NCBI GenBank assembly: GCA_025617375.2
Contig: JAMYGW020000013.1
Coordinates: forward strand, 372,001 to 436,000
Direction: 5' to 3'
Source: Acarospora socialis
Taxonomy: Eukaryota; Ascomycota; Lecanoromycetes; Acarosporales; Acarosporaceae
Length of the DNA stretch: 64,000 nucleotides
Both the position numbers and the translations under genes were made by a program. Each line of letters opens with the position of its first letter. Within the stretch, counting starts at the first letter, position 1. The notes under the pieces are model-generated. The model was not told the origin of the DNA. It made no database searches and worked only from the letters and a program-made list of their open reading frames with translations. Shown here in pieces: positions 14,959 through 57,433 of the stretch.

Positions 14959-15090
14959 GTAAGTAAGGTAGGTAGGTAAGACTTTGAAATGCGACCGGAA
15001 GTCTGCGCGCTGGTGGTTGTAAGTTAAAGTAAGTTAAAAGTAAGGTGGATAAGGTAGGCAGGCAGTAGGTAGGGTAAGTAAGTTAAGTGC
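14959..15090. repeat. Degenerate GTAAGT/GGTAGG short tandem repeat
   Basis: About 130 bases in which units of GTAAG, GGTAG and GTTAAAGTAAG recur, interrupted by unrelated bases. It lies about 500-640 bases upstream of the WHI3 start. The plus strand repeatedly spells the 5' splice consensus GTAAGT; on the transcribed (minus) strand it reads as ACTTAC/CTACC. Confidence 0.7.
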
Positions 15091-42288: not shown

Positions 42289-43482
42289 TCAAAGCTCATC
42301 GAGGCGATCACCGTCGTCCGTTGTCGATCGGTCGTCCTCCGGCACCTCACCGAAATCGCCTTGTTCCATTTCCTCCATCAAACTGTTGTCATCGTCTCCG
42401 TACCCATACTCCCCTGTCTCCTTAGCATCCTCTTCTGCAAACATGTCGCTCATAAGCCCTTGCGTCACCTCGTCTCCATCGCCATCCAACTCTTCTTCTC
42501 CCAATTCGGATCCCTCATCCAGACTCTCGCCCTCTTTCTGGCCCTCCTCCTCGTCCGTGACGGCATCGACATCATTCTCCGCCACCATCTTGTCGAGTAT
42601 GGGATCCGCAGCCTACATATCACGTCCGTCAATCAACTCATTCCTTGACCAACATGCTCTAGCAACCGGTCCGTCAACTCAACTCACTTGGTGAAACAAC
42701 CCAGCCACATGATCCAGCCTCTGCGACCTCCCATCCAGCCTCTGCATCAGCGCAACCATCTCAGCCAGCCACCGGTGCACCTCCTCCGAACTCATGATCC
42801 CGCTCCCCAAATCTGCCACAAAACGATCATACTTCCCTCTCTCCTCCTCGTCCTCAATCACAAACTCTACTCCCCGCCTCCTCTCCGTCCCCAGCACCCG
42901 TACCACCTCCACGAGATCCGCAAAACGACCTCGCTCCCCTTCCGCCGCCGGCGTCTCACCACCCGTCCCCCCAAACGCCGACCCCCGCAGCGCGATGAAC
43001 ACCCGCCTGATCCCCACCGGCAAGCTGCACAGCGCCATCACCCACCACATCAACAGCTGGACGAACTCCATCCGATTCCGACACCTCGCGGCCGCGACCT
43101 CCTGCGCGCATACGACGGCTTGGGCACTCGACGGCGCCGGCATGGCCTCGGCGTCGGCTTGGGCGGCCGAGAGGACGAGCTCGATGCTCCGGATGTGGGC
43201 TTGCGAGGCGGGCGGTACGGAGAATACGAAGGCGGTGAGCTGCTCCGGGTGCTCGAAGGCGATGGTATTAAGGGAGTAGAGGACCAGTGAGGCTTCGGTG
43301 TGGATTTGCTGGTTGACGAGGAGGAGGGAGGTGGTGAGGATGCGGTTGGCGGAGGAGGCGGTGGGTTGAGGTGGGTTGGCAAGCCATGGGTAAGCGTGGA
43401 GGCGGGATGGGGTGGTAACGAGGAGGTAGGTGTAGATTTGGTGGCGGATTTCGAGGGGGAGGGTGAGGAGGTGAGGGGCCAT
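42289..43482 (-). CDS. DUF7730/F-box-like protein with acidic tail
   Basis: Two exons on the minus strand (42688-43482, 42289-42612; intron 42613-42687) give 372 residues. The N-terminus LLTLPLEIRHQIYTYLL is the short F-box-like motif typical of the abundant fungal DUF7730 family. A helical/beta region follows with VNQQIHTEASLVLYSLNTIAFEHPEQLTAFVF, a usual second landmark. The intron joins GLFHQ to AADPILDKMVAEND. The last exon is almost wholly Asp/Glu/Gly-rich (EEEGQKEGESLDEGSELGEEE). Function unknown; if the N-terminal motif is a working F-box the protein would recruit substrates to an SCF ubiquitin ligase, but that is inference. Confidence 0.82.
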
Positions 43483-52745: not shown

Positions 52746-55700
52746 ATGACACTCGCCAAACCCACTACCATGCCGGGGATTGCGTTCGACGGGCGTACTT
52801 TCGAATCATCCACACGACCTGCCATCATGTCTCATCAGTCGAGTTCTCTGCCTAACACTCCGTTTCCTCACATGCGAGACTTGTCCTCGGAATCGAAACC
52901 GCCATCCCCCAATGTCCCGTCGTCTAACCCTTCACCTGTACTGTCGGACTCAAACAAATCGTTGCCGTCCCTACGAAGAAGGTCGCCTACAGCTGGTTGT
53001 AAGTTCGAAACTGGCATGGCCTTCTCCAAAAGGCGTATGGCATACTCTATCGGAACAGATCTGCTCGAGAAGGCAATTGTCACTCCGCAGGAATCTCTTA
53101 GTCCCAAGGATGAGCGGAGACTCACCCACGACATCAGAGAGCTATACAACAAACTGATACCGACTCCAGAGAGCGTGAAAAGACGCGCTCAGTTCATTCA
53201 TAAACTCGAAACCCTTCTCAACAAACAGTGGCCTGAGAGCGACATTAAAGTGAACGTGTTTGGATCTTCCGGTAACTTGCTGTATACAAATGATTCGGAC
53301 AGTTGGTTCCCCGTACCCTCGGGCACACGATGCGGCTCACTGACTGTTAGTAGTTGATGTCTGTGTTACTACACCTACCACGAAACTCAATGACACGTGT
53401 GCCCTGGCGAACGTTCTTGCTGAGCGTAGGTTCTTACTCTCCCCAGTTGCTTCTATGGTAACTTGCTAACGATCTGTAGATGGAATGAAACAGGTTGTGT
53501 GCGTCCCTCACGCCAAAGTTCCCATCGTGAAAATGTGGGATCCGGAGCTGCGGCTTGCATGCGATTTGAACGTAAACAACACGCTTGCGCTCGAGAATAC
53601 ACGTATGATCAAAACTTACGTCGAGATTGATGGACGCGTACGGCCCATTGCTATGATTCTTAAGTACTGGACGAAGCGGAGGATAATAAACGATGCTGGT
53701 ATGTGTTGAAACCAGATGACCACGATGAAAGCCAAGCTAACCTATATCAGCCCTTGGTGGTACACTCAGTTCCTATACCTGGACTTGTCTTATCATAAAC
53801 TACCTGCAGACGCGAAAGCCGCCTGTATTACCCGCTCTACATCAGCGACCACACCAACGCTTAACACTACCTGACGGTTCTATTTCGCCTTTTGCGGATG
53901 ACATCGAGACCTTACGTGGATTCGGCAAAGGGAACAAAGAGACCCTAGGCCAATTGTTATTTGGCTTCTTCCGTTACTATGCCCACGAATTTGACTACGA
54001 GCGACACGTGATCTCAATCCGTCATGGCAGTCCACTCACCAAAGAGGAGAAAGGCTGGCATCTCATGCAGAATAACCGTCTCTGTGTGGAAGAACCTTTC
54101 AACACCATCAGAAACCTCGCGAATACGGCTGATGATACTGCTTTCCGGGGCATTCATCTGGAGATTCGACGAGCTTTCGATCTTATTGCAGAGCGTAAAC
54201 TCGACGAATGCTGCGAGCAGTATGTTTACCCTGCGGAGGAAGAACGCATCTGGGCGAAGCCACCACCGCAACCAAGACCTGTACTATCTCGGAGCATGTC
54301 TCAGTCGAAGAAAGACGTAAACGGTGCCACGGCGAACACGCATCGCGTTCCACAGCCGAACCGACAACATCATATCTCCTCATCAAGCCGTCCAGCTTTC
54401 GCCGTACCTTTATCTCATAACTACAACCCACTCCAAAACGGTTTCGTCGGTGTTCCAAACCAAGTTCATGGCTTTCCAGTACAATTCCCTCAGAACAATC
54501 ATCATAATCAACTCAATCAGCTCCCTCAAAACGTTCCCGTCGGTGTCATAAACCAAGTCAACGGCTTTCCGGCACATGTTCCTCAGAATAACCTTCACGA
54601 TCAACTTCTGCAAAATATTCCCGTCGGCGTCCAAAATCAAGTTCCTGGCCTCTCACCGCAGCTCGCTCAGAACAACCTCCACGATCAACTTTCGCAGAAC
54701 GGACCCGTCGGTGTTCCACACCAAGTTCACGGTTTTCCCGCACAATACTCTCAGAACAACCTCCATGATCAGCTCTTTCGGCACTATCAGGTCCTACAGG
54801 CTCAGGAACAGCACTTACGCTTACAACTACATCAACAAAATCAAGTCGCTCACGTGATGGGACATGGTCCATGGCAAAGCCACATATTACCGAATCAATA
54901 CGGTATCACAAACGTGCAAGCAGGCGTCCGCCCGGGGTACATCGAACCTCTTCCTCTCTCCGCACCGCTACGACCAGGGATGTACGCGTATCCCCTCCAC
55001 TATGGTCCGATGCCCTTCGTCACCCACACCAACCCCAACTCGCCATCCTTTCTCCCTGCTCGGCTCGACACCCGCCGAAGCCTCCATCGAACATCGCCCA
55101 TTGACGGCGGTGCCGGCGGGCCCTTGAGGTCCCAGTCACAGCCGGCACCTACCATGCCGTCAATGGGCGCCCCCTGCGGGTATTACGGCCCGCAGGGGGT
55201 TCTCCCCTACCACCACTCTCCCCCGCCCCAGTACGCTGGGTACTGGCTCGGTGGCCCCCCTGGTGGGGACCACCACCACTACTCCCCGGCCCCGTCGCCG
55301 TACCCAGCGTACAGCGACCTGGCGTGTGGCACCTGGGGCGTGCCACACGCCAGGGGCACTCCGTCGCCCCCGCTGCAGGACGCAGCGGGGGTGGCATACG
55401 GCCCACCGACGCCAGTGGAAACTGGTGTCGGTGGGTCGGCGGGGGGGAGTAGCTCGGCCTCGGAGGGCCGCAGCTACGACACCTCTCCGACCTCCTCCGA
55501 CGACCTCCCCCTCCCCAAACTCCTCCCCTCGGCCCCGCCACAAGCCCCGCCACAGCTTGTGACCACCACCGCCCCCCTCGTCCCCCCTGCGGCCAAGGCG
55601 AAGCCGCAAGCCAAGCGTGCTGCCAACGGCTGGCAGCAGGGGGGCAAGAAGGGGGGCCGGAAGAAGGCCAAACCGACGAAAGTCGGTGCGGCTAGGGGCC

Positions 55701-55747
55701 GTGGGGAGCCCTTCCCTGCGGAGGAGTCGCAGAGGAAGGGGGGTTAG
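52746..55747 (+). CDS. Cid1-family terminal nucleotidyltransferase (putative TUTase/poly(A) polymerase)
   Basis: Four exons (52746-53301, 53354-53425, 53480-53698, 53751-55747) give 947 residues. The polymerase-beta-type domain has FGSSGN (the GS motif, near residue 173) and NDSDID formed across the first intron (the metal-binding D-x-D), then VPHAKVPIVKMWDPELRLACDLNVNN with the third acidic residue. The PAP/25A-associated core is VRPIAMILKYWTKRRIINDAALGGTLSSYTWTCLIINYLQTR. Known role of the family: adds U or A to RNA 3' ends in the cytoplasm, steering decay. U versus A specificity cannot be read here. The C-terminal 440 residues are a low-complexity extension: a Gln/Asn-rich tandem repeat (54434-54778) and a Pro/Gly/Ser-rich tail encoded by a hairpin array, ending in a Lys/Arg-rich segment. 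The next in-frame ATG is at 52770. Confidence 0.9.
54434..54778 (+). repeat. Tandem repeat encoding four 28-31-residue units
   Basis: Four units start at 54434, 54527, 54611 and 54695; the first is 93 bases, the others 84. Each encodes roughly QN-x-PVGV-x-NQV-x-GFPA-x3-QNNLHDQL. Units 2-4 share NNLHDQL exactly. The repeat stays in frame and is Gln/Asn-rich. Confidence 0.9.
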
Positions 55748-55766
55748 CCCGGAGGGGGGCTAACCC
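55096..55766 (+). repeat. Array of about 13 consecutive stem-loops in coding sequence
   Basis: Inverted repeats, arms given as left/right: 55096-55117/55141-55168 (9 plus 13 bp with a 6-base bulge), 55170-55180/55189-55199 (11 bp), 55231-55243/55300-55312 (13 bp, enclosing a smaller stem 55250-55258/55265-55274), 55318-55332/55340-55354 (15 bp), 55367-55376/55382-55391 (10 bp), 55402-55416/55421-55435 (15 bp, one G-T pair), 55449-55459/55466-55477 (6 plus 4 bp), 55539-55545/55555-55561 (7 bp), 55588-55593/55603-55608 (6 bp), 55618-55625/55631-55638 (8 bp), 55672-55677/55682-55687 (6 bp, plus 3 bp outside), 55709-55720/55728-55740 (12 bp, one bulged A), 55741-55750/55757-55766 (10 bp). All arms were matched by eye from the sequence. 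Confidence 0.9.
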
Positions 55767-57433
55767 TGGGGAGGTGGAGGGAAGGAGGAGGAGGAGTGCG
55801 CAGCGAAGGGGTGTGCGGTGGGGCGTGTGTACGTTCTGTATCTTTCTTTTTTGTATTATTATGGGCGGGCGGGCCTCACATAACGAAAAGCCGGTTGGGA
55901 GGAGAGGATTTGGTCATGGCGTAGCGGGGTGGGGAGGGGGGAGTCCTGGTTTTTGTTGGCGTTTTGGGGTCTTCGGCGGAATTTGCATGTTTATGTGCGG
56001 CGTTGGGAAATCCGGTCTTAGGACCGTTGATAGAGTGTTTGTTTTTGGGCTTACTACAGCTGCGTGTTGCTGGGGGCATCTGTCAAATAAATGAAGTCAT
56101 GAGAGCGCAAGAGCCAGATAGAATCAATGGCACTGTATTACTATTCAAAAGTGTGCAGATTGGCGGGCCTCAAGTGCTGTTGTGAATGGTAGAAGACACA
56201 TGGAATAAAAACAAGTCGTCAAAGTTGTTCTACTCTTCTCCTCAGTCCTGACTCTGTATATTATCACTCTCACCGGTCCTCACTCCCTCACCGCTACCAG
56301 CATTGCGCATCTCACATATGTCCTTGTACGAACAGCTGCAGCTACGGCTACGGAACCGGGAGCAGAACAAAGCCAGCGGACCTCATCCTCACAGCTCACC
56401 CTTCCGCTCTCTTCTCACCCTGCCCCAAACATCTCTTCGCAACGCAAGCAAAACTAAACCATCCTCCCTCCCCGCTCCCTCCCCCGCTCCCAGCCACCCA
56501 CCCTAACCACACCAACCAGCCAAATCCGCCATGACGCCTCGTACCGCAACCCACGCAGCGCAGCCATGTACTTCCCCAACCACTCCCACCCTCCTTTCAA
56601 CCATCTCATTTCAAAACAGCCATACCCATCCCGATCCCAATCCCAATCCCATATGGCCCCGGCCTGCGTCCCCAACCCCGCTCGCTGCCTTTCGATCCAT
56701 CCTTCCGGTCTCCATCCGCCATCTCCACGTTCCTTGATAAGTGAGGTGGATTCGGTGGGAGAACCCATCTCATGTCGGGACGCGCGGAGTAGCTGATCAA
56801 GTTGGTGATGAAGTCGGCAGCGGTGGGACGAGAGGGGAGGGTGGGGTCAGGGTCAGGGTTATTGTCCACGGTTGGTGCCTGTGTTGTGGACATGGCGCAC
56901 CAGTCTGCTTGATTCTTGGAGTTCTGGGCGGGTAAGAAGAAGGAGGGCTGAGGAGGGGAGGGGATAGCGGTCTTGGTCACGTCGCTGTCGAGAAGACTTA
57001 GTGTGAAGAGGTTTCTTGAAAGGACGAAGATCAAGCAACACAAGGAACTGATTTTTGGCGTTGCAGGAAGATATGAACGTGGAACAGTATCCTTTAAGCT
57101 ATAGATAAATTCCGTGTGATATGATACATGCCACCCGGAAGAGGAGACGAACGTCAACACCAACACGCCAGCAATCCGACGCCTCTGCGATCGTGCCGGG
57201 GTGGATGAAGAAGGAAGGCACCGCGATAACGTTGCCAAGAAAGATAGTCGGCTCTTTCTCGTCCGCATAAAAGCGCGCGCCATATTTCCCCGACCATACC
57301 TTGCCTTACTGTACCTCATGTTGAAATCCCCGGTTCATTGGAAGGGTAGATCGAAGAACGCCAAAGAAACATATACGCTCCCACTGCACAGCTATAGGTT
57401 TTTTGTAAGAGATGACTGAACAAAGAGATCGAG
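55748..57433. other. Convergent region between Cid1-like gene and PSY2
   Basis: Contains the 3' UTR of the Cid1-like gene, a further small hairpin CGGTC-TTAG-GACCG at 56013-56026, a C-rich run at 56625-56650 and one doubtful small frame listed separately. No other gene seen. Confidence 0.5.
56606..56893 (-). CDS. Doubtful small hypothetical protein
   Basis: A 95-residue frame from the ATG at 56893 reads MSTTQAPTVDNNPDPDPTLP, then AADFITNLISYSARPDMRWVLPPN, then a Gly/Arg-rich part ending in GIGIGIGMGM, the translation of a G-run repeat. The middle block looks protein-like but I recognise no family. The frame is open further upstream to 57319 without clear coding character. It could be an exon of a spliced gene or not expressed at all. 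Confidence 0.28.
   Translation of the reverse strand: MSTTQAPTVDNNPDPDPTLPSRPTAADFITNLISYSARPDMRWVLPPNPPHLSRNVEMADGDRKDGSKGSERGWGRRPGPYGIGIGIGMGMAVLK

Follow-up and report, generated by a model that had tools for sequence, protein, structure and literature searches.

Within a 64,000-nt stretch of contig JAMYGW020000013.1 from Acarospora socialis (hereafter the window) lies a gene for an orthologue of CutA (52746..55747, + strand), and its 3' end carries a dense array of hairpins (55095..55780, + strand) that was delimited by hairpin scanning and folding. The array is 72% GC and occupies the final 653 nt of the coding sequence (CDS) plus 33 nt of the 3' untranslated region (UTR). Its pairing pattern is real, lies far beyond chance and marks a single gene with an extreme feature. 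The analyses described below show that the sequence can pair, that it does so in excess of codon-preserving controls and that this is confined to one stretch of the window.

The host gene, which an earlier note on this DNA had called Cid1-like, can be assigned more sharply. Matches to the PF22600 palm and PF03828 PAP_assoc domains fall on its two long open reading frames (ORFs), and the closest solved relative of the encoded protein is CutA (PDB 6ywn, E 1e-156), with 64% identity to the CutA core over about 359 aa. Since a palm nucleotidyl transferase domain and a PAP-associated domain are both present and the nearest solved structure is CutA, the protein groups with the CutA type, and from its sequence we take the gene to be a CutA orthologue with putative RNA nucleotidyl transferase activity. 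The translation, 947 aa as spliced, joins four exons across hand-picked introns (53302-53353, 53426-53479 and 53699-53750) and begins at a tentative start codon. CutA itself, a terminal nucleotidyl transferase, has a preference for cytosine, and in filamentous fungi the tagging of poly(A) tails with C/U brings about rapid decay (PMC7498324). Beyond the core, the tail is of low complexity, passing from Q/N/H-rich repeats through the array, which encodes a Pro/Gly/Ser/Ala-rich segment that also holds His, to a Lys/Arg/Gly-rich end; judged by composition, this tail is probably disordered. The array, unlike the crystallised CutA (6ywn), belongs to this tail beyond the crystallised core.

The array opens with a nested hairpin (55095..55169) in which a perfect 14 bp stem (55095-55108/55156-55169) sits directly on a perfect 9 bp stem (55109-55117/55141-55149), followed by a hairpin with a perfect 11 bp core, 13 bp counting G-U pairs, and the loop ATTACG (55169..55200). 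The fold then forms a multibranch domain (55217..55448) with an 11 bp closing stem (55217-55227/55438-55448) and four branches. The first branch, at 55231..55312, is a perfect 13 bp stem spanning 56 nt that the fold lengthens inward; here alternative pairings compete, with 55229-55247 able to form a local hairpin (CCAGTAC/GTACTGG) and 55231-55243 able to pair with 55300-55312. The other three are a perfect 15 bp hairpin with a 7-nt loop (55318..55354), a 14 bp hairpin with a perfect 10 bp core, two G-U pairs and a 5-nt loop (55363..55395), and, in the fold, a 17 bp hairpin that includes two G-U pairs and is closed by a GGAA loop (55400..55437). Next to the domain the fold places a 12 bp hairpin with one bulge and the loop CGGA (55449..55477). 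A 3' domain (55504..55780) has a 13 bp closing stem (55504-55517/55767-55780) and inner stems at 55523-55536/55695-55708 and 55582-55595/55631-55644; the fold also contains a 6 bp hairpin with a GAAA loop (55672..55687) and a 13 bp hairpin with one bulge (55709..55740). The last element is a perfect 10 bp hairpin with a 6-nt loop (55741..55766), which spans the stop codon TAG (55745-55747).

For 55085-55780, the minimum-energy fold contains 13 hairpin loops and pairs 71% of the bases. Its stems are mostly Watson-Crick (12 G-U pairs among 247), its loops vary from hairpin to hairpin, and its nesting takes in the 14+9 bp stem, the 13 bp stem over 56 nt and closing stems over 158, 210 and 249 nt. 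Two of its four tetraloops, GGAA and GAAA, fit the GNRA type, a point in favor of a selected RNA fold. The sequence CCCTGCGG occurs in the 5' arms of three stems (55172, 55585 and 55714); four of its eight matches in the window, counting both strands, lie inside the array and include one in the first stem's 3' arm. Apart from CCCTGCGG, no motif common to the stems was noticed.

This architecture bears out, with corrections, the picture drawn in the earlier note, of about 13 adjacent hairpins at 55096-55766, most of them perfect, 10-15 bp long and with loops of 4-8 bases, all within one open frame. The array is there and folds into 13 hairpin loops, but that number is ordinary, matching 12.5 +/- 2.0 in 120 synonymous shuffles, and we rejected hairpin number as a signal. 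Strictly, four hairpins have the described form, a count that rises to 7 of the 13 loops once G-U pairs and small bulges are tolerated. Rather than standing simply in a row, several stems enclose others, and flush junctions between stems are not in excess (17 against 23 +/- 4 in shuffles), so flush stacking was likewise discarded as a signal. Most of the array lies in one open frame, yet the last hairpin holds the stop codon and enters the 3' UTR, and the closing stem reaches 55780. Nor is the longest single palindrome extreme, its score of 15 falling within the 8-17 seen in shuffles.

What does stand out is the concentration of long perfect stems and the stability of the whole. A scan of all 64 kb for perfect Watson-Crick hairpins with arms of at least 9 bp and loops of 3-60 nt found 21, of which 9 fall within 55095-55766; all four with arms of at least 11 bp sit in the array, and the remaining 63 kb has no perfect arm over 10 bp. 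The pair AGGTAGGTA/TACCTACCT, partly present as nearby inverted copies, occurs 17 times in the window against 0.2 expected (for example at 14966, 16431, 28954, 30824, 49648 and 51714) and never within the array; it explains 5 of the 12 perfect hairpins with arms of at least 9 bp outside it. The coding part of the array (55094-55747) has 8 perfect hairpins with arms of at least 9 bp and loops of at most 60 nt, whereas 400 codon-preserving shuffles averaged 0.92 and never had more than 4; among four such hairpin-count measures, one (arm at least 8, loop at most 20) was matched by 1 of 400 synonymous shuffles. Uninterrupted helices of at least 9 bp number 10 against 2.7 +/- 1.5, with a maximum of 8 in 120 synonymous shuffles.

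Both shuffling designs that the earlier note had proposed as checks gave an excess, and the result it had named as refuting, an energy no lower than in codon-preserving shuffles, did not occur. At -470 kcal/mol, 55085-55780 folds far below 200 dinucleotide shuffles (-351 +/- 8, lowest -378; z -14.9), a smaller first run of 20 such shuffles having given z -21.6. When protein and codon usage were preserved by synonymous shuffling, the coding part (-434) remained about 12 standard deviations below its controls: none of 300 synonymous shuffles (-326 +/- 9) and none of 200 in which dinucleotide counts were also nearly kept (-331 +/- 8) was as low, with z -12.4 in both designs. The fold is also well defined, its mean base-pair entropy of 0.21 bit lying under the lowest of 120 synonymous shuffles (0.30; mean 0.95 +/- 0.26). 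The array therefore goes beyond codon-preserving controls in both energy and definedness, as expected of a structural RNA. For the 696-nt segment, synonymous shuffles (-352) fold no better than dinucleotide shuffles (-351), which argues that the structure is made by codon choice and not by the protein.

The simplest alternative is that the pairing is a by-product of composition or codon usage, with C-rich and G-rich stretches of a GC-rich Pro/Gly tail pairing by chance. GC does climb from about 50% to 72% within the array, third-position GC in bins of 30 codons moving from 0.37-0.63 (53954 to 55033) through 0.67 in the bin where the array starts to 0.73-0.87 beyond it, and the ordinary numbers of loops and flush junctions are what such an origin would give. 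The energy, however, was never reached by dinucleotide- or codon-matched shuffles, and other GC-rich segments show no excess. When 183 segments of 348 bases were tiled across the window with 30 shuffles each, two array segments gave sense z values of -9.9 and -9.8 (antisense -9.6 and -5.9), whereas the other 181 averaged +0.26 +/- 1.15 with a lowest value of -3.2; no other segment of the window comes near the array's departure from shuffled folding energy. Since the next GC-richest segments (69% and 66%) gave +2.6 and +0.4, GC content is not the cause of the array. The shuffles and the GC-rich segments together refute composition as the source of the energy and the long stems, and as a full account of the array it is hardly credible. 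One GC-rich stretch, 42801-43400, lies in a minus-strand ORF with DUF7730; in contrast to the array, its segment at 42905 (69% GC) is less stably folded than shuffled versions on both strands (z +2.6 and +2.1).

Nor is an inserted palindromic repeat of the REP/MITE-like kind supported, as the stems are not copies of one sequence and three share only CCCTGCGG. Direct repeats in the array form two families, one of 24 nt (79%) and one of 21 nt (76%), and a blastn comparison of the array with plasmids and phages found no match. Neither three scans of viral contigs (with the tail ORF, the catalytic core and a two-sequence alignment) nor two of bacterial and archaeal contigs found a CutA relative; one weak viral-contig match to the tail ORF (L001; 35% identity, query residues 164-215) was judged a low-complexity resemblance.

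Two further alternatives give the hairpins a role of their own. The array might be a small-RNA hairpin precursor, or a noncoding RNA on either strand that overlaps the CutA tail. Its stems look short for Dicer substrates, which counts against a small-RNA role, and the CutA frame stays open to its end; Rfam gave no match at gathering score in the whole window, nor at E 0.5 in 54900-56100. Good folding on both strands would suit such a locus, and hairpin small-RNA loci are known in fungi (PMC9757828), but on balance we find this origin highly improbable. Alternatively, individual hairpins could be specific protein-binding sites within a localisation or autoregulation element, comparable to the ASH1 elements or the target hairpins of RNase III. 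The position inside a coding region near its 3' end, the CCCTGCGG common to the 5' arms of three stems, the Lys/Arg/Gly-rich end of the encoded protein and the fact that enzymes of the CutA kind act on RNA all speak for putative sites of this sort. Against them, the loops differ among the hairpins and CCCTGCGG is the one motif seen to recur, and we regard this explanation, too, as quite unlikely.

The earlier note left two readings open, selection for a folded mRNA end and template-switch mutation in a tolerant tail. We favor the former, tentatively and as close to an even call: in the structured 3' end of the CutA coding region, selection would have acted on the codons to give stable, well-defined pairing. 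The low-complexity and probably disordered C-terminal tail would leave the message free to fold. Human synonymous-constraint elements tend towards disordered protein segments (PMC4014394). About ten long stems would form and continue through the stop codon. We infer that the mRNA folds in this manner in the cell and that selection has kept it so.

The chief competitor, quite possible although somewhat less likely than a selected fold, is a mutational scar. On this view, fold-back template switching, acting repeatedly, and the correction of palindromes that were imperfect built the hairpins in a tail that tolerates changes of amino acid, and no RNA function is needed. Several observations accord with it. 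The stems are mostly Watson-Crick, and both strands fold alike, which makes an origin at the DNA level possible. Four tandem copies of a Q/N/H-rich coding repeat (54434..54789, + strand; spacing 93, 84 and 84 bp), found by a repeat scan upstream of the array, indicate that the CutA tail is mutable. In Saccharomyces cerevisiae, inverted repeats and multinucleotide changes in coding genes have been ascribed to template switching (PMC8604942). Quasi-palindrome mutations required high transcription in a yeast assay (PMC3820800), and for nematomorph mitochondria repeat conversion has been proposed as one possibility (PMC6649704). A scar would nevertheless require about ten events in 690 bp in a window whose other 63 kb lacks comparable arms, and neither the nesting nor the closing stems over 158-249 nt are expected from single short-range events. 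Template switching alone also leaves the 72% GC unexplained.

Amino-acid order offers a further comparison, because arms copied at the DNA level should leave the order of residues unusually capable of encoding hairpins. The native protein allows 175 possible hairpin centres with arms of at least 11 bp. Permuted proteins gave 150 +/- 22 in one run (n=60, with 10 as high) and 155 +/- 29 in a second (n=400, 24% as high), so that the native order is not clearly shaped by hairpins. Simulated DNA-level copying of nine hairpins gave 231 +/- 42 centres (n=400), with 7% as low as the native value. When centres were counted without overlap, all 400 simulations lay above the native protein, yet the native protein is also on the low side among permutations. 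The balance leans towards codon choice rather than wholesale copying of arms, though these results would also be compatible with the correction of palindromes that were already imperfect, which would alter few residues.

The mismatches that adjoin the nine longest cores (G-T 7, A-C 1, other 10) bear on the same choice, since G-T flanks lengthen stems in the sense RNA and so weakly favor selection at the level of the mRNA. The controls are balanced, with G-T:A-C ratios of 45:45 in the rest of the window and 1498:1452 in synonymous shuffles. Transcription-linked C-to-T change could be another source of the bias.

A number of results weigh against a selected fold. With no orthologue among the contigs scanned, no compensatory change has been seen. 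The G-T excess has a two-sided p of 0.07 (0.01 when tested against base composition) and is not robust: the G-T:A-C ratio fades as the threshold is relaxed, from 7:2 (arm at least 8) to 9:5 (arm at least 7) and 6:5 (arm at least 7, loop at most 20). The share of G-U pairs is not enriched, at 5.6% of pairs against 7.6 +/- 1.6% with 41 of 400 shuffles as low, and as a discriminator we consider it neutral; codon-phase use of the pairs stays inside the shuffle range. The antisense strand folds as strongly as the sense strand (coding part -440 against -434; z -13.0 against -14.9), although Watson-Crick palindromes of any origin fold alike on both strands and the energy difference between strands is uninformative as a test. 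The comparison with simulated copying is weak, with tails of 5-12% on six counts, and it assumes the present amino-acid composition. Finally, the array is uneven: on the + strand, 240-nt windows from 55201 and 55261 lie -5.6 and -5.8 from the GC regression, and those from 55381 and 55441 only -1.8 and -1.6.

If the 3' end is a selected structure, it would lengthen the life of the message and pace ribosomes across the last 200 codons, a proposal that we model on exogenous messages, in which designed structured coding sequences lengthened functional mRNA half-life (PMC6883848). The folded end may also shield the message from 3'-end decay, where tailing enzymes act. A more specific version is unlikely on present evidence. 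In it, a 690-nt "superfolder" module, written in the tail's synonymous codons and continuing through the stop codon, would be a cis-regulator that shields the RNA-tailing enzyme's own message or times its decay, the enzyme itself being one that marks mRNA 3' ends for decay. CutA might possibly bind its own mRNA directly, and autoregulation by the tailing enzyme is speculation; a term search of the CutA paper (PMC7498324) found no mention of CutA's own mRNA.

The neighboring genes encode PP4R3, a septin, an Mcp5-type PH protein and a protein with a squalene epoxidase domain, and would fit a fungal, probably ascomycete, nuclear chromosome. The earlier note's remark that it knew of no described element of this kind in a nuclear gene needs qualification. 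Among the top-ranked literature matches, from a body of text in which most subscription papers are missing, none showed such an array in nuclear coding sequence, whereas coding palindromes of Nematomorpha and inverted repeats of yeast have been published. The mitochondria of Nematomorpha contain long perfect coding palindromes, up to 284 bp, in four species (PMC6649704). As in the array, perfect inverted repeats lie in a reading frame and their function lacks explanation, the translation of the frame being presumed in our case; the nematomorph repeats, however, are mitochondrial, with very long arms that code for conserved regions in many genes (PMC6649704), whereas the array is nuclear, has perfect cores of 9-15 bp, involves one gene in the window and occupies 690 bp of a low-complexity tail. 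In S. cerevisiae, 68 genes carry template-switch inverted repeats, mostly with arms of 7-8 bp and with 11 bp in two; the arms range over 7-11 bp, plus one of 16 bp that was not statistically evaluated there (PMC8604942). These repeats resemble the array as short perfect inverted repeats in nuclear coding DNA (PMC8604942) but differ from it in that about ten are packed here side by side in one gene. Like designed structured mRNAs, the array has more CDS structure than codon-matched alternatives (PMC6883848, PMC8940940, PMC8499941); unlike them, it is natural and confined to the 3' end.

What the array means for CutA genes depends on whether relatives keep the pairing. If they do not, the CutA tail would be a place in nuclear coding DNA where mutations that make hairpins have clearly concentrated. 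If compensatory changes maintain it in them, the array would be a natural example of coding sequence under selection for its fold as a whole, which the literature considered here studies in designed mRNAs, and an RNA-tailing enzyme would be tied, in a way open to test, to the structure of the mRNA that encodes it. Should the cis-regulatory version be true, the array would be a coding RNA element of an array-type sort not seen in the literature considered.

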